A stretch of 64,000 bases of DNA. It comes from Rhodoferax sp. OV413 (lineage in GTDB: Bacteria > Pseudomonadota > Gammaproteobacteria > Burkholderiales > Burkholderiaceae_C). How positions within the stretch are numbered: the first letter of the stretch is position 1; every line of letters begins with the position of its first letter. Positions 24,834 to 63,912 of this stretch are shown here, in pieces. Made by a program: the position numbers and the translations under genes. The notes beneath the pieces were generated by a model, which searched no databases, was not told where the DNA came from, and was given only the letters and a program-made list of their open reading frames with translations. The stretch covers positions 594,386-658,385 of the forward strand of contig NZ_FNJA01000001.1 of NCBI RefSeq assembly GCF_900104385.1, read 5' to 3'.

Positions 24834-24837
24834 CCTC

Positions 24838-24895
24838 GCTACAGTTTATATAGCTACTGGCGCAGGTACTCTCTGCGCCGGCGCTTGATTTATTA
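24838..24895 (+). repeat. Short hairpin repeat copy (nagA / kinase junction)
   Basis: GCTACAGTTTATATAGCTAC, GGCGCAGGTACTC, TCTGCGCCGGCGC then TTGATTTATTA. The arms GGCGCAG and CTGCGCC pair. Its right edge includes the stop codon of the minus-strand histidine kinase (TTA at 24893-24895). Confidence 0.8.
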
Positions 24896-26356
24896 CTCAG
24901 TCTGCACGGCGGGTAGCAGTACGGTCACCACCAGCCCGCACTCCGCATGGTTGTGCAAACGGATTTCGCCGCCATGCGCCTGGATGATGTTGCGGGCAAT
25001 GCCCAGGCCCAGGCCGGTGCCGGTGCGGTTGTTCTGCTGGCCGTGGCCTAGCCGTACATGCGGCTCGAAGGCGGCCGACATCGAGGCCTGCGCAATACCC
25101 GGGCCGAAGTCGCGCACCTCGACCACCGCCAATGCGCCGCGGTCGCTCAGGCGCAGCTGCACCCTTTCGCCGTACAGCACGGCGTTGTCCAGCAGGTTGC
25201 TGAAGGCCCGCTCCAGCGCCAGCGGCTTGCCCTGCACACTCACTGCGTCGGACACGAACTCGATGCTGGCATTCGGGTGGATCGGCCGCTTGGCCAGTCG
25301 CGCCAGCAAGGTGTCCAGCCGCACGGGAGTCAGGTTCTCGTGGATGTCGGTGTCCTTGACGCTTTGCAGTGCCGCCTTGACCATCACGTCCAGGTCGTCC
25401 AGGTCTTCGTGGAAGTCAGCCTGCAGGGCTTCGTCGTCCAGCAGTTCGGTGCGCAGCTTGAGCCGCATGATGGGCGTCTTCAAGCCGTGCGAGATACCCA
25501 GAAACAGCCGCTCGCGGTCCACCAGGTAGCGCTGAATGCGGGCCTGCATTTCGTTGAAGGCGCGGGCGGTGCGGCGCAGCTCGGCGGTGCCGGTCTCGGG
25601 CACGGCCTCGGGCGCGCTGTCGCTGCCAAAGGCATTGGCGGCAGAGGCAATCCGGTTCAAGGGGCGGATCAGGCCGCGCACCAGCAGCACTGACAGCACC
25701 AGCACCGTCAGCAGCGTCACCACCTGCATGGCCACCCGGTCCAGGGTCAGCGGATTGGCGTTGTCCAGAAAGTACGGGTCGGGCATGGGTGCGGCCAGGT
25801 ACAGCCAGCGGCCGGGCTCGAACTCGGCCTGGATCACCAGCACCGGCGCGGGGCGCGGGCGCAGCAGCAAGGTGGCCTCGACCCAGGACTCGGGCAGGTC
25901 GTTCACCGTGCGGCCGTCGTCCGACACCCGCAAACCATCGGGCCAGGCAAACGCCACATCGGGTGGCTGGGCCGGCTGCAGATTGCCCACCAGATCGTCG
26001 CGCACCACCGTCACCACCGCGTCCACCAGCGCATTGCCGCTCAGCGGGGTGATGGGCACGCGCTCACGGTTCACATTGACGAAGAAGCGCGTACCACCCA
26101 TGGTGCGCAGCTGCTCGATCAGGATGGGCCGGTATTTGGGCGGCAGGTCGCGGAAGAAGCGCAGCGTGCCCGCCGCATTCACCGCCAGATGGTGGGCCGC
26201 GCCCAGGGCTTCGGCGCGGGCGCTTTCGCGCAGCTGGCGCGCCCACAACAAGGTGCCCACCAGCTGCGCGCTGACCACCCCCAAAGCCATCACCAGCACG
26301 ATGCGGCCCAGCAGGCTGTCGGGCAGCCAGCGGCGGAAACCCGCAGGCCTAGGCAT
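24893..26356 (-). CDS. Sensor histidine kinase with unusual H-box (GtrS-like context)
   Basis: A 487-residue inner-membrane kinase: TM1 about 15-38, periplasmic domain about 40-205, TM2 about 208-230, HAMP about 231-282, then kinase core. The phospho-accepting H290 sits in FLGISHGLKTPIMRL, so the residue after His is Gly where Asp or Glu is usual. The N box NLLDNAVLYG, DFGPGI and GTGLGLGIARNI are normal. The start at 26356 overlaps the stop of the response regulator gene; a start at 26386 would add 10 residues. It ends the operon SBP-RR-HK, which recalls the Pseudomonas glucose sensor GltR/GtrS in size and order. Confidence 0.9.
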   Translation of the reverse strand: MPRPAGFRRWLPDSLLGRIVLVMALGVVSAQLVGTLLWARQLRESARAEALGAAHHLAVNAAGTLRFFRDLPPKYRPILIEQLRTMGGTRFFVNVNRERVPITPLSGNALVDAVVTVVRDDLVGNLQPAQPPDVAFAWPDGLRVSDDGRTVNDLPESWVEATLLLRPRPAPVLVIQAEFEPGRWLYLAAPMPDPYFLDNANPLTLDRVAMQVVTLLTVLVLSVLLVRGLIRPLNRIASAANAFGSDSAPEAVPETGTAELRRTARAFNEMQARIQRYLVDRERLFLGISHGLKTPIMRLKLRTELLDDEALQADFHEDLDDLDVMVKAALQSVKDTDIHENLTPVRLDTLLARLAKRPIHPNASIEFVSDAVSVQGKPLALERAFSNLLDNAVLYGERVQLRLSDRGALAVVEVRDFGPGIAQASMSAAFEPHVRLGHGQQNNRTGTGLGLGIARNIIQAHGGEIRLHNHAECGLVVTVLLPAVQTE

Positions 26357-29894: not shown

Positions 29895-29954
29895 GGCTTC
29901 TAAGCAACCCAAATAACCACCGTCCACCCGACATTCAGTCAGAACGCACGCCCC

Positions 29955-30051
29955 CCAGAAACACCGCAGAACTGGCTTTGCCAGGCTGCTGGTGTTGCCC
30001 CCTGCAAGGGGGTTGGCGGAAAGTGCGCAGCACTGGAGCCTGGGGGTGAGC
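29955..30051 (+). repeat. 97 bp multi-hairpin repeat, copy A
   Basis: Nearly identical to 49260-49357. It can fold into several hairpins: CTGGC-TTT-GCCAG nested in AACACC...GGTGTT, then CCCCCT-GCA-AGGGGG, then a small GTGC/GCAC stem. It ends 12 bp before the first permease start codon, inside the transporter operon. Confidence 0.9.
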
Positions 30052-40541: not shown

Positions 40542-40555
40542 GTTTCGGCGATACC

Positions 40556-40620
40556 GCTATTTAATCGATAGCTGCCAGCGCAGGTAGTATCTGCGCTGCA
40601 GCCCGATTCACCAAAAATTC
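40556..40620 (+). repeat. Short hairpin repeat copy after the amino-acid importer
   Basis: CGCTATTTAATCGATAGCTG, CCAGCGCAGGTAG, ATCTGCGCTGCAGCCCG. AGCGCAG and CTGCGCT pair. It lies 15 bp after the stop codon, suggesting use as a 3' end. Confidence 0.85.
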
Positions 40621-40680
40621 ATGCCAGGGCGTCGGCAAACGCAGGCGTCCTGACGATCGGGAGCATTTGCCGTGCACATT

Positions 40681-44083: not shown

Positions 44084-44089
44084 GGTAAA

Positions 44090-44152
44090 ACTATTAAATA
44101 GATAGCAGCTTGCGCAGGTAATATCAGCGCTAGAGGCGTATTTCTTATAAAT
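44090..44152 (+). repeat. Short hairpin repeat copy between helicase and GGDEF-EAL gene
   Basis: ACTATTAAATAGATAGCAGC, TTGCGCAGGTAATATCAGCG and CTAGAGGCGTATTTCTTATA. It begins 7 bp after the helicase stop, and its AT-rich tail supplies the stop codon (TTA at 44145-44147) of the convergent GGDEF-EAL gene. Confidence 0.85.
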
Positions 44153-46616
44153 CTGCGGGTACAGATTCCCAGGCCAGGCTCAAGGGCATGTCGGCCGCCA
44201 GCGCGGGCCGGGCGAACAAATAGCCCTGGCCGTAGTCGCAGCCCGCAGCGGCCAGCAGATCGCACTGCTCCTGCGTTTCCACGCCCTCGGCCACCACCTT
44301 CAGGCCCAGGGTGTGGGCCATCACGATGATCACATTGCACAAGGCCATGTCGTCCGAGTCGGCGGTCAGGTTGCGCACAAAGGCCTGGTCGATCTTCAGC
44401 ACATCGATGTCGAACTTCTTCAGGTAGGACAGCGAGGAATAACCGGTGCCGAAGTCGTCCAGCGACAGGCCGATGCCGGCCTGGCGGAAGCCGCGCAGCT
44501 GCTCTGTGATGTTGCCGCCGGCGTCCATCAGCAGGCCTTCGGTGATCTCGATCAACACCGCCTGGCCCGGCAGGCCGGCGGCTGACAGTTGGGCCAGCCA
44601 GGTGGCCTGGTTGATACCTTCGTTGCGGAACTGCACCGGTGACACATTCACGCTGACCTGGAAGTCCGGGTGGTGGGTCTTGCGCCATTGCGTGACCTGC
44701 TTGACCGCCTGCTGGAACACCCAGTTGCCGATGTCAACGATCATGCCGGTCTCTTCAGCCACCGGCACAAAGTCGGCCGGGCTGACCATGCCGTCTACCG
44801 GGTGGCGCCAGCGCACCAGGGCCTCGGCCTTGCGGATCTGGCCGGTCTTCAGGTCGACGATGGGCTGGTAGAACACGCTGAACTGGTGTTCGGCAATCGC
44901 CACCCGCAGGTCGTTGATCAGGCGCATACGCTTTTGCGCCACGTCCTGCATGGACGGCGTGAACACGCTGTAGCGATTCCGCCCCTGGCTCTTGGCCGCG
45001 TACATGGCCTGGTCGGCGTTCTTCAGCAGAGCCTCGACGCCGGTGGCGTCCTGGGGGTAGAAGGTGATGCCGGCGCTGGTCGAAATATGCACTTGCTGGC
45101 CGGCCAGCAAGAACGGCTCGGCCAGGCGCCGCAGCGCGTCCTGCACGATCTGGTGCACGTCGGCGATGTCGGCCAGGCCGCTGAGAATCAGAGTGAATTC
45201 GTCGCCGCCCAGGCGCGCCACCAGGTCGTTCTGGCGCACGCCCACGCGCAGGCGGCGCGCCGCTTCCTGCAGCAGCAGGTCGCCCATTTCATGGCCCAGG
45301 GTGTCGTTGACTTCCTTGAACAGGTCCAGGTCGAAGAACACCAGGGCCAGCGAGCGGGCTTCGCGCTGCGCGGCCGCCATGTCCTGCTCCAGCCGGGTCT
45401 GGAACATATGGCGGTTCGGCAGGCCGGTCAGGCGGTCGAAGTTGGCCTGGTTCCAGATCATTTCGGCCGAACGCTTGCGCTCGGTGATGTCTTCCAGCAC
45501 CAGGATGAACAGCTGCTCGGTGCCCAGGTCGATCATGCGGCCCGAAACTTCGCACAAGATGGCGTCGGCGCGTTCCGCCGGCAGCAGGGCCAGCGAGCCG
45601 TCGACCACCGCGTCACGGCGGCGATCCTGCAGCGTAGTGCCGCAACGCAGCCAGGCCTCAAAGCCCTTGATATGGCCGCTGCGTTCGATCACCGACAACA
45701 CATCGGTCTGGTCCTGCGGTCGGCACCACAGCTGGGTATGGCTGGCGCCCAGCAGGTCGTCGCGCAGCAGGCCGAACTGGTGCAGGCCGGCGTCGTTGAT
45801 GTCGACGATGGGATAGCCGGGGGCATTGCGCGACACCGTCATGGCCAGCGGCGAGGCGTGGAAGATGGCCTTGAACTTGGCCTGGGTGAAGCGCAAGGCC
45901 TGCTCGGCGCGCAGGCGGTCGTTCAGCTCATGCTGCAGGTCGGAGTTCTTGGTGTCGCGCTCGGCAATCAGGCCGCCCAGCGACTCGCGCATCTGGTCCA
46001 GGCTCTCGGCCAGACTGCCGATCTCGTCGCGGCGGTGCCAGGCCAGCGGCTGGTTCAGCTCGCCGCGGGCCAGCCGGGAGGTAGCCTGCTGCAGAACGGA
46101 CAGCGGGCGGATCACCCGCCGCTCCACCAGCAGCAGCACCAGCGCAAACGAAATCCCCACCTGGGCCAGCAAGGCCAGGCCGAGTTGGATGAAGTCGGCC
46201 CACAGCTGGCGCTCGATACGGTCGGTGCTGAGCTCGACCTTCACCTGGCCGATGCGTTTCTTCTCCACCAGGATGTCGCTCTGCTGGCTCAGCACCAGGC
46301 CGTGGCGGCGCGCGCCGTCTTCGCCCGACACAAAGGTGTTGCCAAACTCGTCGTGGATGGTCACCGCCACCACATCGGGGTTGCGCATCACCGAATCGAT
46401 CAATTGGGAGGCTACCGCCTTGTCCACGTTCCAGATCGGCATGGCCAGCGCACTGGACAGCAGCTGGGTGTACTGCGACATGGGTTCGCGGATGCGCAGG
46501 GAGAGCTCGCGTGCATAGCGGTCCTTCAGCACCAGACTGCCAAACACCAACGCGGGTACCAGGATGCCAAGCGCAACGCCCAGCGTCATGATTCTTCTAA
46601 GGGCTAACTTGGGCAC
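44145..46616 (-). CDS. Membrane GGDEF-EAL protein with periplasmic sensor, HAMP and PAS
   Basis: An 823-residue inner-membrane protein: TM1 about 8-30, periplasmic domain 31-141, TM2 about 142-165, HAMP about 166-218, coiled coil, PAS about 240-380 ending DITERKRS. GGDEF is intact at 470-474 with an RxxD I-site (RQND, 461-464). EAL begins at E598 (EALVRW) and keeps DDFGTGYSS and VAEGVET. It could make and degrade c-di-GMP. The gene is 104 bp downstream of, and on the same strand as, a periplasmic family-3 binding protein, which may deliver the signal to its periplasmic domain. Confidence 0.93.
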   Translation of the reverse strand: MPKLALRRIMTLGVALGILVPALVFGSLVLKDRYARELSLRIREPMSQYTQLLSSALAMPIWNVDKAVASQLIDSVMRNPDVVAVTIHDEFGNTFVSGEDGARRHGLVLSQQSDILVEKKRIGQVKVELSTDRIERQLWADFIQLGLALLAQVGISFALVLLLVERRVIRPLSVLQQATSRLARGELNQPLAWHRRDEIGSLAESLDQMRESLGGLIAERDTKNSDLQHELNDRLRAEQALRFTQAKFKAIFHASPLAMTVSRNAPGYPIVDINDAGLHQFGLLRDDLLGASHTQLWCRPQDQTDVLSVIERSGHIKGFEAWLRCGTTLQDRRRDAVVDGSLALLPAERADAILCEVSGRMIDLGTEQLFILVLEDITERKRSAEMIWNQANFDRLTGLPNRHMFQTRLEQDMAAAQREARSLALVFFDLDLFKEVNDTLGHEMGDLLLQEAARRLRVGVRQNDLVARLGGDEFTLILSGLADIADVHQIVQDALRRLAEPFLLAGQQVHISTSAGITFYPQDATGVEALLKNADQAMYAAKSQGRNRYSVFTPSMQDVAQKRMRLINDLRVAIAEHQFSVFYQPIVDLKTGQIRKAEALVRWRHPVDGMVSPADFVPVAEETGMIVDIGNWVFQQAVKQVTQWRKTHHPDFQVSVNVSPVQFRNEGINQATWLAQLSAAGLPGQAVLIEITEGLLMDAGGNITEQLRGFRQAGIGLSLDDFGTGYSSLSYLKKFDIDVLKIDQAFVRNLTADSDDMALCNVIIVMAHTLGLKVVAEGVETQEQCDLLAAAGCDYGQGYLFARPALAADMPLSLAWESVPADL

Positions 46617-47830: not shown

Positions 47831-49066
47831 CTAGGCGGCCTGCGCCCCGGCCACCATGCCGGCCACCATATCGGCGGTCACAGCCGACAACGTCAAGCCC
47901 AGGTGCCCGTGGCCGGTGTTGTAGAACACGCCGGGCCGCTTGCCCGGGCCTACACGGGGCAGCATGTTCGGCATCATCGGGCGCAGTCCGGCCCAGGGGA
48001 TAACGCTCTCGGTGCGCACGCCAGGAAAGCATTGCTGCACCCATTCGACCAGCGGGCGGATGCGGTCGGCCCGGATATCGCGGTTGTAACCATTGAATTC
48101 CGCGGTGCCGGCCACCCGGAAGCGGTCCAGGCCCAGGCGGCTGGTCACCAGCTTGGTGCCATCGTCGAGCAGGCTGACCATGGGCGCGGCGGCCTGGCTT
48201 TGCGCATCGTCCAGATTGACGGTGATCGAATAGCCCTTGACCGGGTAGATATTCACCCGGTCGCCCAGCTGGGCGGCGATGCCGCGGCTGGCCGTGCCGG
48301 CGCAGACCACCACGCCGTCGAACACCTGGGTCTGCTGATCGGCTCCATCCTGGGAGGTGATGCTGACCTGTTTGCCATCGCTGCGCACAGCCGAAATCTC
48401 CTGCCCGTACTGGGTTTTCACGCCCCGGCGCTCGGCCGCCATGGCCATGCCGGTGCTGAACTTGTGGATGTCGCCGGTAGTGTCGCTCTCGGTGAAGTAG
48501 CCGCCGTAGTAACTGCCGGCCAAGGTCGGCTCGATGGCGCGCATCTCCTGCGGCGTGACCGCGCGGCGCTCCAGCCCGCCCTGGGCCAGCAGTTTCGAGA
48601 CCTTGCCGGCCTGGTCAAAACCGGCCTTGTCGCGGTAGATGTGCAGAATGCCTTCGCGCTTGTGGTCGAAGTCCAGGCCTTCCTCGTCGGCCCAGGCATA
48701 CAGATGCTCGCGCGCGGCGATGGCCAGGCGGGTGGTTTCCACCGTGTTCTTTTCGTAATGCGGTATGGCGGCCATGAATTCGGCAAACCAGGCCATCTTG
48801 TGCCAGCTGGGCTTGGGATTCACCAGCAATGGTGCATCGCTCTTCAACATCCACTTCAGGCCTTTGAGCACCGTGGACCAGTGGTTCCACACCTCGGCGT
48901 TCGATACCGAGAACTGCCCGCCATTGGCAAACGATGTTTCCATGGCCGCATAGCGGTGTTTTTCGAACAATGTGACGGTAAAGCCGCGTTTTGCCAAAGC
49001 GTAGGCCGTGGTGACGCCCGTGATGCCGCCGCCTATAACGGCAAAATGACCAGCTAGATTTTTCAT
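47831..49066 (-). CDS. dadA: D-amino-acid dehydrogenase (DadA family)
   Basis: A 411-residue FAD-dependent oxidoreductase. The dinucleotide motif is FAVIGGGITGVTTAYALAK at the N terminus; TSFANGGQFSVSNAEVW, a C-terminal PWAGLRPMMPNMLP and YNTGHGHLGLTL follow the DadA pattern. It should oxidise D-amino acids (or glycine-like substrates) to 2-oxo acids, passing electrons to the respiratory chain at the inner membrane. A tandem glycine riboswitch in its leader makes expression glycine-responsive, which fits use of glycine or D-alanine as nitrogen and carbon source. Confidence 0.92.
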   Translation of the reverse strand: MKNLAGHFAVIGGGITGVTTAYALAKRGFTVTLFEKHRYAAMETSFANGGQFSVSNAEVWNHWSTVLKGLKWMLKSDAPLLVNPKPSWHKMAWFAEFMAAIPHYEKNTVETTRLAIAAREHLYAWADEEGLDFDHKREGILHIYRDKAGFDQAGKVSKLLAQGGLERRAVTPQEMRAIEPTLAGSYYGGYFTESDTTGDIHKFSTGMAMAAERRGVKTQYGQEISAVRSDGKQVSITSQDGADQQTQVFDGVVVCAGTASRGIAAQLGDRVNIYPVKGYSITVNLDDAQSQAAAPMVSLLDDGTKLVTSRLGLDRFRVAGTAEFNGYNRDIRADRIRPLVEWVQQCFPGVRTESVIPWAGLRPMMPNMLPRVGPGKRPGVFYNTGHGHLGLTLSAVTADMVAGMVAGAQAA

Positions 49067-49120
49067 GATGAGAGTCCCAAAACGTCATAAGGGGGATAGC
49101 AACAAACGTGCGCAGCTATC

Positions 49121-49460
49121 GCCCCTCTGTTTTGGACCTGAGAGATTCACGGCCGGCGCATAGCCAGCCGCTTGCTCCTGCGGTGAACCGGGTGACGAAA
49201 CCCGGTTGCTCTTCAGAGTGTGTGACACCCCCCACGGTTTCAGGCATGACGCGCCGTTTCCAGAAACACCGCAGAACTGGCTTTGCCAGGCTGCTGGTGT
49301 TGCCCCCTGCAAGGGGGTTGGCGGAAAGTGCTTCAGCACTGAAGCCTGGGGGTGAGCCAAAATTAGATACCGGTCCTTTTGCCTGAAAGTTTCCGGGGCG
49401 GTTGCTCCTTCGGCGCTGATTTCTTGCCGCAAGGGCAAGGGGAGCAGTCTCTCCCGGTAT
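49121..49460 (-). promoter_or_regulatory. Tandem glycine riboswitch with a repeat inserted between the aptamers
   Basis: On the minus strand aptamer 1 (49460-49367) has ATACCGGGAGAG, GCCGAAGGAGCAA and CTTTCAGGCAAAAGGACCGG, with P1 closed by ATACCGG/CCGGTAT. Aptamer 2 (about 49220-49121) has CTCTGAAGAGCAACC, CCGCAGGAGCAAG and AATCTCTCAGGTCCAAAACA with P1 CTCTG/CAGAG. The linker is 146 nt instead of the usual few to about twenty, because the 98 bp multi-hairpin repeat (49260-49357) lies in it. Aptamer 2 ends about 55 nt before the dadA start codon. Confidence 0.9.
49260..49357 (+). repeat. 98 bp multi-hairpin repeat, copy B, in the riboswitch linker
   Basis: Matches 29955-30051 except around GTGCTTCAGCACTGAAG, where copy A has GTGCGCAGCACTGGAG. 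The nested hairpins are conserved. It occupies most of the spacer between the two glycine aptamers. Confidence 0.92.
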
Positions 49461-49483
49461 CTCCGCAGATTATCGCACCGGTG

Positions 49484-50197
49484 TCAAAGCACTTTCACCG
49501 CACGGCCTATGAACTGGATCGGGCCGGTGGGTTTATGGGTGGGTGAGCCATTGATCGGCTCCAGGGTCAGCTCGAACAGCTGGTTGGGCTGCAGCGGCGG
49601 CAATTTATCCAGTGCGATCTGCAGGGTCTGGCCGGGTTTGACCAGGCCCAGCGACACCGGCCCGTTCCAGCCATCGGCCTTGGTCCAGAACTGCAGCGAT
49701 TTCTCGGCCGGCACCTCAGCCTGGCCCAGCGGGATCAGGCTCAGCTGCTGCGGGTTGCTGGCCTGGATCACCCAGCCCGGCGCCTTGTCCTGCGGAGCCA
49801 CCAACACCACCATGTACTGCGGGCTGGCCGGCAGCACGCCTTGGCGCGTCACCAGTACCGAGGCCATGATGGCCGCGGCGGCAAAGCCGGCACCGGCCAG
49901 GCCGCGCCACAGGTCCAGACTATTCCACCAACCCGTTTTTACCGCGGGCACGGGCCGTCGACGCGGTGCCATCGCATGGTCGACACTGCGCTCAATGCGT
50001 TGCCATAGCTGTACCGAGGGCTCGACCGGCTCGGCGAGGGCCGTCAGGGGCAGCAGCCGCTCTTCCCAAGCCTGTACCGAGGCGCGCAACTCGGCGTCGT
50101 GGGCCAGGCGCTGCTCCACCTCGTGCCGGCGCGTGGCCGACAAGGTGCCGAGCACATATTCGGCGGCCAAGTCTTGCGTGTCTTGCGGCGCGCTCAT
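49484..50197 (-). CDS. Anti-sigma factor, RskA/ZAS-like
   Basis: A 237-residue protein. The N-terminal cytoplasmic part (LAAEYVLGTLSATRRHEVEQ, about 8-75) is the anti-sigma helix bundle. One transmembrane helix lies at about 98-117. The periplasmic C-terminal domain (about 120-237) matches the RskA C-terminal type (KSLQFWTKADGWNGP, GKP-type turns). The start ATG at 50197 overlaps the sigma-factor stop (ATGA), so the pair is coupled. It should hold the sigma factor at the membrane until an unknown envelope signal. Confidence 0.92.
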   Translation of the reverse strand: MSAPQDTQDLAAEYVLGTLSATRRHEVEQRLAHDAELRASVQAWEERLLPLTALAEPVEPSVQLWQRIERSVDHAMAPRRRPVPAVKTGWWNSLDLWRGLAGAGFAAAAIMASVLVTRQGVLPASPQYMVVLVAPQDKAPGWVIQASNPQQLSLIPLGQAEVPAEKSLQFWTKADGWNGPVSLGLVKPGQTLQIALDKLPPLQPNQLFELTLEPINGSPTHKPTGPIQFIGRAVKVL

Positions 50198-51519: not shown

Positions 51520-51595
51520 ATAAAAAACGCTATTTATTCAATAGCTGCCAGCGCAGATTAAATATGCGCTGGCAGCCTATTTCATTCACGATTTT
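51520..51595 (+). repeat. Short hairpin repeat copy with a perfect 12 bp stem
   Basis: GCTGCCAGCGCA (51544-51555) and TGCGCTGGCAGC (51565-51576) pair perfectly across a 9 nt loop, flanked by AT-rich ends. It lies between the lipoprotein gene start side and the 3' end of dgcA and can terminate the latter on the minus strand. Confidence 0.88.
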
Positions 51596-55601: not shown

Positions 55602-55640
55602 GCCACTAGTGTGGCAGAGCCGGCAGTGCTACGCCTTCGC

Positions 55641-55704
55641 TACTCTATTGATAGCTGCTCGCGCTGGTGTAATCAGCGCTGCAGCCCGATTTCTTATAAA
55701 TTCA
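55641..55704 (+). repeat. Short hairpin repeat copy before the dioxygenase 3' end
   Basis: TCTATTGATAGCTGCTCGCG, CTGGTGTAATCAGCGCTGCA and GCCCGATTTCTTATAAATTC. The arms pair imperfectly. It lies 4 bp beyond the stop of the minus-strand dioxygenase and 40 bp upstream of the LuxR gene start. Confidence 0.85.
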
Positions 55705-55707
55705 TAC

Positions 55708-60892: not shown

Positions 60893-60958
60893 TAGCTATT
60901 AAATAGATAGCTACTGGCGCATATAAAACCTGCGCTGGCGGCACTTTTTACTTAAATT
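60893..60958 (+). repeat. Short hairpin repeat copy between monooxygenase and GGDEF-EAL gene
   Basis: AGCTATTAAATAGATAGCTA, CTGGCGCATATAAAACCTG and CGCTGGCGGCACTTTTTACT. It begins 6 bp after the monooxygenase stop and its tail supplies the stop codon (TTA at 60952-60954) of the convergent gene. Confidence 0.85.
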
Positions 60959-63912
60959 TCCCAGTGTCCGTTCGGCAGGCGGGGCGCAGACCAGTAGGCC
61001 TCGAACTCGGCCGCTGCCAGCGGATGCGAGAACAGATAGCCCTGCGCATAGTCGCAGCCGGCGGCGGTCAGCAGGTCGCGCTGCTGGGTGGTTTCCACGC
61101 CCTCGGCCACCACCTTCATGCCCAGCGCATGGGCCATCACGATGATGGCCTTGCACAGGGCCAGGTCGGTGGACCCCGGAATCAGATGGCGCACAAACGA
61201 CTGGTCGATCTTCAGGAAGTCGATGTCGAACTTCTGCAGATACGACAGCGAGGAATAGCCGGTGCCGAAATCGTCCAGCGACACCTGGATGCCGGCCTCG
61301 CCCAGCTCCAGCAGGTGGCTGGTCACGCGGGTGCTGGTGTCCAGCAGCAGGCCTTCGGTGATCTCGACCACCATGCATGCGCCTGGCAGCCCCATGGCCT
61401 GTAGCCGGCTGGCCCAGGGCTGCAGGCCATGGCCATCGTGGTGAAACTGTGCGGGCGATTTGTTCACGCTGATCTGGAAATCGGGGTGCAGAGTCTGGCG
61501 CCAGGTCTGCACCTGCTGCGCCGCCTGCTGGAACACCCATTCGCCGATATCCACAATCAGCCCGCTGGATTCGGCAATCGGGATGAAATGCGCGGGGCTG
61601 ACCAGACCGCGCGTGGGGTGCTGCCAGCGTATCAAGGCCTCGGCCTTGTGCACCGAGCCGGTGGCCAGCTCGACGATGGGCTGGTAGACCAGCCGGAACT
61701 GCTGCTCCTGCAGGCCGGAACGCAGGTCGTGCGCCAGCCGGGCCCGGGTTTGCGCGGCCTCTTGCAGCGCCGGCGTAAAGAAGCTGAAGCGGTTGCGCCC
61801 TGCCCCCTTGGCAACATACAAGGCCTGGTCGGCGTTCTTGAACAGGCCTTCGATCTCCTGCGCATCGGCCGGGTACAAGGTAATGCCTATGCTGGCCGAC
61901 ACAAAAGCCTGCTCGTTGCCCAGCTGGAACACAGCCTCCAGGGTGCGCAGGATCTTCTGCAGGGTCGGCTCCAGGCGGTTGCCGTCGTTCACCTCGGTCA
62001 GGATCACGGTGAACTCGTCGCCGCCCATGCGGGCCACGGTATCGGCCTCACGCACGCAGTGCTGGATGCGCCGGGCGGCCTCTTGCAGCAACAGGTCGCC
62101 GTTGTCATGGCCCAGGGTGTCGTTGACTTCCTTGAAGTGGTCCAGGTCGATGAACAGAATGGCCAGCTGCTGCACGTCGCGTTTGCAGCGCTTGATCTCC
62201 TGCTCCAGCCGGTCGCGCAGCATGCGCCGGTTTGGCAGGCCCGTCAGGGTGTCGAAGAAGGCCTGCTGGCGGATCAGCGCCTCGGAGGCCTTGCGCTCAG
62301 TGATGTCGGTATGCGTGCCTATCATGCGGGCCGGCCGGCCTTGGGCATCGCGGCTGATGACCATGCCCCGGCTCAGCACCCATTTCCAGCTGCCGTCCTT
62401 GCAGCGCACCCGGTGTTCGTTGGAATACGTAGACGTCAGGCCGCTGAAATGGGCAATGCGGTCGCGCTCCATCTGCACCAGATCGTCGGGGTGGGTGCGC
62501 TTGTCCAGCTCAGCGGGCAGGTCGGGCATTTCACCTTCCTGGAAGCCATACATCTCGACCAGGCGTTTGGACAAATGCTCCACCCCGCTCTGGATATGCC
62601 AGTCCCACACGCCGTCGCCAGTGCTCTCCAGCGCCAGGCGCCAGCGGTCTTCGGTTTCTTGCACCGCCATCTGCGCCTGCTTGCGGTCGGTGATGTTCTG
62701 CATCACGCCGATGCGCGACACCAGCTTGCCGTTCTTGCGCACCGAGGTGCCCGTCACATGCACCCAGATGGTGTTGCCGCGGAAGGTCACGGCCTCCAGC
62801 TCGATACCGCCGGCCTGGTCCGTATCGAACGCCAGCGCGCGGGCGTGGACCTTTTCCATGGAGGCCGGCGTGAACACCCGCTGAGCCGACTCCATCGCGG
62901 TGCTGGGCGTGTATTCCTCGGGCGAGGTCTGGAAGATGCGGTAGACGCCCTCGGTCCAATAGACCCGGTCGGTGGCAACATCCACCTCCCAGGCGCCTAC
63001 CTGGGCCTGGGACTGCATGGCGGTCAGCAGCAGGTCCAGGCGCTTGCGTGCCGCCTGGGCCTGCACATAGTCGGACACTTCGGCAACCGTCCGCACCATG
63101 CCACCGTCGGGCAGCATCTGGCTTTTGACTTCCAACGTCCGGCCGTCCGGCGTGTCGCGCAGAAAATGCGCGGGCAACGGAGTTTTGCCGCCGGTCAGTA
63201 CATAGTCGCGGGCATGCTCGTCCACCAGCTGCGCCTGCGGGCCGAAGTCGCCGCGCTTAAACTGAAAGCTACTGATACCCGCCAGTGAGGGGCGCTCGGC
63301 CAGAAAACTCTCGGGCAGGTCCAGCATCTCGCAGGCCCGCTGGTTGAACGCGATCAGGCACATCTCGGCGTTGAACACAAAAATACCCTGGCTGATGCTG
63401 GCCGTGGTGGTTTGCAGCAGCCGGGTTTGCTCTTGCAGCTGGGCATTCAGCTCGCGCAATTCCACCTCGGCCTGCTTGCGTGCGCTGATGTCGGTATGCG
63501 TGCCTATCATCCGCAGCGGCCGGCCCTCGGCGTCCCGGCTGACGATGGTGCCGTGCGACATGATCCATACCCAATGGCCATTTTTGTGGCGCATGCGCAG
63601 ATCGGCAATGTAGTCAGGCGCCAGGCCGGCCAGGTAGGCCGTCACGGCGGCTTGCAGGGGCACGATGTCGTCGGGATGCACCAGGTGGATGAATTCCGCA
63701 TAGCCGCCCGTGAGCTCGCCGCCGCGGTAGCCCAGGATTTCCTCCCAGCGCTGCGAGTGGGTCTGGGTGTTGCTGGCCAGATCCCATTCCCACACGCCGA
63801 CGCCCGAGGCCTCCAGCGCCACCTTCCAGGGGTTGTCTTCCCCGCTCAGCTCTGGCGCACGGGTCCAGTCCTGCGGGGCGGGCGAGGCTGGGGAGTCAAT
63901 GCGGTCGGTCAC
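60952..63912 (-). CDS. Soluble multi-PAS GGDEF-EAL protein
   Basis: A 986-residue protein with no membrane helix. Four PAS-type domains run at about 28-150 (ends DISARKQAE), 165-285, 300-415 (ends NITDRKQAQ) and 425-545 (ends DITERKAS). GGDEF is intact at 630-634 with an I-site READ (621-624). EAL begins at E758 (EALIRW) and keeps the DDFGTGYSSL and AEGVET motifs. Both enzymatic domains look competent, so net activity depends on PAS signals. It stands alone. The last 88 bp of the window upstream of it hold no recognisable feature. Confidence 0.93.
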   Translation of the reverse strand: MTDRIDSPASPAPQDWTRAPELSGEDNPWKVALEASGVGVWEWDLASNTQTHSQRWEEILGYRGGELTGGYAEFIHLVHPDDIVPLQAAVTAYLAGLAPDYIADLRMRHKNGHWVWIMSHGTIVSRDAEGRPLRMIGTHTDISARKQAEVELRELNAQLQEQTRLLQTTTASISQGIFVFNAEMCLIAFNQRACEMLDLPESFLAERPSLAGISSFQFKRGDFGPQAQLVDEHARDYVLTGGKTPLPAHFLRDTPDGRTLEVKSQMLPDGGMVRTVAEVSDYVQAQAARKRLDLLLTAMQSQAQVGAWEVDVATDRVYWTEGVYRIFQTSPEEYTPSTAMESAQRVFTPASMEKVHARALAFDTDQAGGIELEAVTFRGNTIWVHVTGTSVRKNGKLVSRIGVMQNITDRKQAQMAVQETEDRWRLALESTGDGVWDWHIQSGVEHLSKRLVEMYGFQEGEMPDLPAELDKRTHPDDLVQMERDRIAHFSGLTSTYSNEHRVRCKDGSWKWVLSRGMVISRDAQGRPARMIGTHTDITERKASEALIRQQAFFDTLTGLPNRRMLRDRLEQEIKRCKRDVQQLAILFIDLDHFKEVNDTLGHDNGDLLLQEAARRIQHCVREADTVARMGGDEFTVILTEVNDGNRLEPTLQKILRTLEAVFQLGNEQAFVSASIGITLYPADAQEIEGLFKNADQALYVAKGAGRNRFSFFTPALQEAAQTRARLAHDLRSGLQEQQFRLVYQPIVELATGSVHKAEALIRWQHPTRGLVSPAHFIPIAESSGLIVDIGEWVFQQAAQQVQTWRQTLHPDFQISVNKSPAQFHHDGHGLQPWASRLQAMGLPGACMVVEITEGLLLDTSTRVTSHLLELGEAGIQVSLDDFGTGYSSLSYLQKFDIDFLKIDQSFVRHLIPGSTDLALCKAIIVMAHALGMKVVAEGVETTQQRDLLTAAGCDYAQGYLFSHPLAAAEFEAYWSAPRLPNGHWEI

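Follow-up and report, generated by a model that had tools for sequence, protein, structure and literature searches.

A dispersed structured repeat in the linker of a tandem glycine riboswitch upstream of dadA in Rhodoferax sp. OV413

Why glycine riboswitches carry two aptamers, and how tightly these must be tethered, has been debated for a long time, largely on the basis of engineered constructs. The accessible text of Crum et al. 2019 (PMC6944388) describes 2,216 tandems with a largest gap between aptamers of 32 nt, and applies a working rule under which aptamers within 100 nt of each other form a tandem. On the minus strand of a 64,000-nt stretch of the Rhodoferax sp. OV413 genome (the window, taken at its full length), two glycine aptamers lie in front of dadA with a 145-nt linker between them, which raises the question of whether they still act together or have been uncoupled. 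The parts of the locus, in window coordinates, are as follows.

49469..49498, minus strand: predicted promoter, with a weak -35 (GTGAAA), an 18-nt spacer and an extended -10 (TG, GATAAT)
49361..49466, minus strand: glycine riboswitch aptamer 1 (RF00504, 60.4 bits)
49219..49363, minus strand: inter-aptamer linker of 145 nt, from the end of aptamer 1 P1 to the start of aptamer 2 P1, repeat element almost throughout
49257..49357, minus strand: three-hairpin core of the repeat element (covariance model R1, 117 bits; G000:C5:643642-643742 minus)
49226..49256, minus strand: right arm of the repeat element, complementary to its left end and giving a predicted outer closing stem (duplex -36.1 kcal/mol)
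49117..49226, minus strand: glycine riboswitch aptamer 2 (RF00504, 40.7 bits)
49129..49136, minus strand: segment UCCAAAAC, 3' of the aptamer 2 CUCAGG, with the ribosome-binding region as its alternative partner (predicted pairing)
49076..49083, minus strand: GUUUUGGG, adjoining the ribosome-binding site, complement of 49129-49136 (8-bp helix)
47831..49066, minus strand: dadA, the gene under control, encoding D-amino acid dehydrogenase (NF009074, 725.7 bits; cut-off 494)
29934..30051, minus strand: second copy of the element within the window (R1 core 29952-30051), lying in a probable transporter operon between two of its genes

Each aptamer upstream of dadA exceeds the RF00504 gathering score of 32, so that the scan rejected neither, and an earlier sequence-only reading, which had placed a tandem with 146 nt between its aptamers before dadA, was borne out by a P1-to-P1 distance of 145 nt. 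The leader has in common with the dadA-type tandem two aptamers with conserved cores, a D-amino acid dehydrogenase gene downstream and an alternative helix at the ribosome-binding site. It differs from known tandems, with gaps of up to 32 nt in the accessible part of PMC6944388, in its 145-nt linker with a mobile repeat; with 134 nt between the two model matches it lies outside the short-linker definition of a tandem, and we class it as a tandem variant because an insertion interrupts the linker. Under the 100-nt limit used in that tandem search, it would be counted as two singletons. Apart from RF00504, no Rfam family was matched in the leader, insert included, at E values up to 1.

Comparison with related dadA leaders shows that the long linker is derived and not ancestral. 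Both aptamer cores could be read in 76 of the best 80 of 439 named dadA loci (this set apparently includes G005 and G006, as L103 and L125); of the remaining four, L116 and L124 are cut by contig ends, and L106 and L150 show no aptamer core. The aptamer pair was present in all 76 readable loci, at a core-to-core spacing of 91-99 nt. This spacing is 230 nt in the window's genome (G000) and 228 nt in a sister species (G002), compared with 96 nt in G003, 95 nt in G007 and 93 nt in G006 (L125). Six of the eight genus genomes carry the tandem before this dadA, G000 and G002 with an insert and G003, G005, G006 and G007 without one; the linker measures 10 nt in G003, 8 nt in G005 and 10 nt in G007. 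An exact-pattern search of 369 family genomes, a sample that excluded G001, G005 and G006 and a search that covered gaps of 8-38 and 133-163 nt, returned the shorter gap in 36 genomes and the longer in two, which are G000 and G002. The closest DadA from a named genome (91%, among the best 80 of 439) belongs to a metagenome-assembled genome labelled Burkholderiales.

These comparisons refute the proposal of two single switches with no relation to each other, or of a chance match, with the repeat lying between independent elements. The large gap and the lower aptamer 2 score of 40.7 bits could be read in its favour, but the pair recurs at normal spacing in every readable named locus and aptamer 2 scores 37-53 bits in four insert-free same-genus leaders, and we give the proposal practically no credence.

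The inserted sequence is a repeat. The dadA linker forms a direct repeat with positions 29934-30026 (90% identity over 93 nt). The sequence-only reading had described 98 nt of the linker as shared with 29955-30051; the sharing holds, but 98 nt understates the element, since the outer right arm (about 49226-49256) is also shared, in decayed form, and forms a predicted stem with the left end, which makes almost the entire linker element. A covariance model, R1, built from 67 copies and 100 positions, gave 64 matches in the window's genome (68 candidates scored), hence at least 64 overall, and a BLAST-type search of this genome with the linker gave at least 40 (40 scored of 89 candidates). R1 is present in 40 of 60 sampled family genomes, with 100 matches in Polaromonas sp. 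CG9_12, 84 in Polaromonas sp. CG_9.7, 64 in Variovorax soli, 7 in Rhodoferax lacus and one each in Comamonas testosteroni and C. suwonensis; no match was found in the single genomes searched of Cupriavidus basilensis, Janthinobacterium fluminis, Stutzerimonas kunmingensis and Halopseudomonas bauzanensis. In Polaromonas sp. CG9_12 (L105) some copies are arrayed head-to-tail, with units 2-6 nt apart, and four-copy arrays of this kind lie at C5:1874593-1874994 and 3216722-3217135. The mean GC content of the element is 63.9%. By eye, stop codons appeared to stand directly 5' of many copies. At the other 19 of 20 scanned loci (of 30 fetched from G000), no other Rfam leader adjoins the element.

The claim that the insert is a structured repeat of a dispersed kind gains further weight from covariation. 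In the RNAalifold consensus of 67 copies, 10 of 29 pairs show two-sided changes (shuffled mean 4.8, with none of 500 shuffles as high); the structure was taken from the same alignment, which biases the comparison in its favour. Paired cells make up 99.0% of the consensus, compared with a shuffled mean of 95.5%, and pairing falls to 35-54% when partners are slid by 1-3 columns. Three hairpins make up the core, one small, one of CCCCC-GGGGG and one long, the last with AACACC/GGUGUU at its base. Beyond the core, the decayed right arm that is found in many copies is the complement of the left end (CACCCCCAGGCU), and a long closing stem appears in many predicted folds; the stability of this arm duplex ranks 9th of 71 for the G000 dadA copy, and 31st of 71 (-27.2 kcal/mol) for the G002 dadA copy in its transcribed orientation. 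From the 71-copy consensus, the cores of the G000 and G002 dadA copies depart at 7 and 3 positions, respectively, and the median copy at 5.

Short intergenic hairpin repeats that are transcribed within mRNAs include REP/BIME, ERIC, NEMIS/Correia and other MITE-like repeats. By description, the element shares their short hairpin form and their intergenic, mRNA-borne habit; in contrast to that group, it has no transposase tied to it. RAYT-driven mobility was considered and set aside, as copies do not flank the Y1_Tnp genes at six loci, the single exception being a weak and incomplete R1 match of 17.9 bits at the end of one locus. Y1_Tnp of the REP-associated type gives one match in each of six of the eight genus genomes (L257-L262, corresponding to G007, G003, G002, G005, G000 and G004), and G006, whose genome is 71% complete, has 40 repeat matches and no Y1_Tnp match. 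It is possible that a Y1 transposase moves the element in trans. Comparison of filled with empty sites revealed no readable target-site duplications.

Matched by description, the element is likely the beta-proteobacterial repeat element (BRE) of Hot et al. 2011 (PMC3110155), and hence has probably already been described. In the accessible part of that account, BREs occur in Bordetella and other Betaproteobacteria (Polaromonas sp. JS666 has 29 copies, Delftia acidovorans 13 and Rhodoferax ferrireducens 4) as repeats of about 90 bp, mostly intergenic, at times in tandem with a few nucleotides separating units, and showing indications of mobility. Length (about 90-100 nt), multicopy presence in Comamonadaceae, Polaromonas among the richest genomes, small-gap arrays and mobility signs are thus alike, whereas Bordetella BREs have a GC content of 69.0% against the 63.9% given above, and the extra right arm that is frequent in the present copies differs from the BRE as described. 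The same part of the account makes no mention of a copy inside a riboswitch, and among the matches listed, no later paper bearing the BRE name was found. Likewise, among the matches listed in a search of titles and abstract openings of the open-access literature, no report of a repeat inserted between riboswitch aptamers was found.

G002 carries a copy of the element at the same place in the linker, within a few nucleotides, in the opposite orientation to that in G000, and both inserts leave P1 of both aptamers whole. The close agreement in position could point to one ancestral insertion, followed by inversion in one lineage and exact loss in the others. The two inserts are 89.8% identical to each other, but each is nearer to other copies than to its counterpart (95.9% for G000, 94.8% for G002). 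At four-fold sites of dadA, compared over partial genes of 768 nt (G002), 1128 nt (G003) and 1086 nt (G007), G002 differs by 0.185 from G003, 0.191 from G007 and 0.316 from G000, and so groups with the insert-free pair, such that a single insertion would require an inversion and several exact losses. We therefore regard a single ancestral insertion as very improbable, and the G002 copy as probably a second, independent insertion. The element also turns over elsewhere: the site of the second window copy (29934-30051) is empty in G002 and G003, and G007 holds its own copy there in the opposite orientation, right after the stop codon, so that the copies of G000 and G007 at this site are independent. 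In view of this turnover, two insertions in one linker are notable and do not prove a preference for the site. Four same-genus leaders with short linkers, set against two genomes with inserts of roughly 145 nt in opposite orientations, thus constitute a natural experiment, with which the effect of tether length can be tested against that of mere proximity.

The sequence-only reading had offered two outcomes, that the repeat folds back on itself and keeps the aptamers close, or that it uncouples them. We compared these using the path between the aptamers, defined as the mean shortest route between them across predicted structures of the tandem RNA without its expression platform; the folding is thermodynamic, at the level of secondary structure, and leaves out ligand, tertiary contacts and co-transcriptional folding. 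The path is 12.4 steps in G000 (median 11), compared with 8.0 when the insert is removed and 8.9-11.0 in the natural insert-free leaders of G003, G005 and G007. With 200 dinucleotide-shuffled inserts placed in the G000 leader it rises to 36.6±13.9, with 5 of 200 as low as the real one, and predicted pairing between insert and aptamers is 2.0 compared with 19.2±10.5 for shuffled inserts (2 of 200 as low). P1 pairing changes little in value, from 7.57 with the insert removed to 7.19 with it for aptamer 1 (equalled by 47 of 200 shuffles), and from 4.73 to 4.26 for aptamer 2 (equalled by 6 of 200). The G002 leader gives a mean path of 23.8 (median 13; 25 of 200 shuffles as low) and an insert-aptamer pairing of 11.5 (15 of 200 as low). 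The folding model is crude: aptamer 1 P1 sums range from 0.01 to 9.97 across three natural insert-free leaders, and the natural short-linker leader of G007 receives no P1 for either aptamer. Within these bounds, predicted folding favours fold-back with the aptamers kept close over uncoupling, with a clear preference in G000 and a weaker one in G002; the earlier observation of a tandem with a structured repeat in its linker is confirmed, and its interpretation is supported in part.

If the insert did uncouple the aptamers, the RNA could be turning into a single-aptamer switch run by aptamer 2, with aptamer 1 as a bystander. In accessible parts of the literature, tandems are thought to decay into singletons (PMC6944388), and in B. 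subtilis in vivo, mutations affecting aptamer 1 dimerisation and the kink-turn abolish regulation (PMC5666159); the longer and more variable predicted path in G002 would also fit. The G000 insert is, however, predicted to be closed and insulated, and the scores of aptamer 1 are on a par with those of relatives lacking an insert. Aptamer 1 and aptamer 2 score 60.4 and 40.7 bits in G000 and 62.2 and 35.6 bits in G002, the latter the lowest aptamer 2 score of the six leaders, compared with 60 and 37.3 in G003, 60.3 and 41.9 in G005, 62.8 and 52.6 in G006, and 55.2 and 41.6 in G007. The conserved blocks of aptamer 1 also match those of insert-free relatives, apart from a one-base indel that likewise occurs among insert-free leaders. 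Taken together, we consider uncoupling unlikely.

Next to these scores we observed one other unusual aptamer: in L003 (G027), at about 1640-1830 of the reverse complement, the Rfam match to aptamer 2 spans 243 nt, and by eye this reflects a long stretch inserted within the aptamer itself, P3 being the probable site.

Whether the closed fold was selected is a separate matter, addressed by swapping 71 copies of the element into the leaders, each with its best right end. The median path was 19.9 steps in the forward and 29.0 in the reverse orientation, and the resident dadA copies ranked 15th of 71 for closure in G000 (forward) and 5th of 71 in G002 (reverse); closure is thus common without being universal, and the residents stand in the upper part of the distribution without being exceptional. 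Selection for exceptional closure was not significant at these ranks, and a more flattering rank of 7 of 71 for G000 (forward), obtained with a fixed right end, was set aside. The insert may then have hitchhiked neutrally, any insert being tolerated and the closed fold being a frequent habit of the element, without selection. The abundance and turnover of the element and the fact that neither resident copy ranks first speak for this, against which many other copies close worse; nothing strongly opposes it, and we give it close to an even chance; it is largely compatible with the explanation that we prefer.

That preferred explanation, held with moderate confidence, is that a BRE-like mobile repeat landed in what was a short linker of an old tandem that controls dadA, that its RNA folds on itself and keeps the aptamers close, and that the ON switch most likely still works. 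The comparisons show the insertion and the derived state of the linker, with aptamers, promoter and expression platform left undisrupted, as well as the covariation of the element; the closed fold and the proximity are predictions, and the second insertion in G002, the retained function and the ON direction are inferred. The RNA of the insert would behave as an independent folding unit, in which an outer stem joins both ends and encloses the covarying hairpins; because such a stem closes the insert, the aptamers would be linked via the stem base instead of a long open tether, at a path approximating that of the ancestral linker. A more far-reaching idea, which we put forward only tentatively and consider doubtful, is that structured mobile repeats are ready-made RNA insulators, and that the one seen here was kept twice, once in each orientation, on account of the inter-aptamer geometry that its closing stem restores. 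If this is true, a repeat that closes on itself can enter where two domains of a regulatory RNA join and leave that RNA unbroken. The dadA leader also suggests a route by which hairpin repeats get into structured leaders without destroying them.

The expression platform can be followed across the same leaders. The segment UCCAAAAC has a potential pairing partner in GUUUUGG(G/A), which adjoins the ribosome-binding site, and the 8-bp helix occurs in five of five leaders (G000, G002, G003, G007 and L103, that is, G005). In a swap test on 81 leaders with 17 distinct segments, the own partner was better for 13 of 17 segments and 60 of 81 leaders, an outcome that is favourable and not uniform; one segment is common to 34 of the 81. 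At 49000-49560 we found nothing resembling a terminator, with only 0.5 such sites expected by chance. This arrangement suggests a translational ON switch, in which glycine binding would fix aptamer 2 J3/1 and the P1 strand and thereby free the ribosome-binding region from the alternative helix. With both aptamers and the helix that would sequester the ribosome-binding site intact, the switch is probably still working, although the inserts may be young, which makes intact aptamers weak evidence of retained function.

The promoter bears on a further concern of the sequence-only reading, which had noted that linkers of known tandems are short and take part in a kink-turn. Shortness agrees with the gaps of known tandems given above; whether the concern over the kink-turn carries over to this leader is doubtful. 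In the accessible text of Babina et al. 2017 (PMC5666159), a kink-turn between leader and linker is present in over 90% of tandems, and breaking it abolishes regulation. The predicted sigma-70-like promoter matches at 9 of 12 positions, with TG preceding the second hexamer, and shuffles of the region average 0.2 such sites; the GATAAT -10 box occurs in five of the six same-genus leaders of this dadA and is missing in G006 (L125). In these five, only about 6 nt separate the end of the -10 box from P1, so that transcription is predicted to begin close to P1 and to leave little or no 5' leader for pairing with the linker. If this predicted start site holds, the P0 kink-turn may have been absent before the insertion, which may explain the tolerance of the linker for an insert.

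Other repeats were seen in the window. A second dispersed hairpin repeat, GCTATT...ATAGCTGC.GCGC, comprises two overlapping families with 6 and 8 copies, and is found at 24837-24904, 40555-40622, 44089-44156, 51528-51595, 55638-55705 and 60894-60961. By eye, motifs similar to this GCTATT-type repeat stand directly downstream of glycine aptamers in G004, G010, G017 and G019. In addition, two paralogous stretches, 44191-45491 and 61007-62307, share 70-79% identity and keep a constant distance of 16816, the first falling in a large open reading frame (44145-46616) that by eye has the look of a GGDEF/EAL protein.
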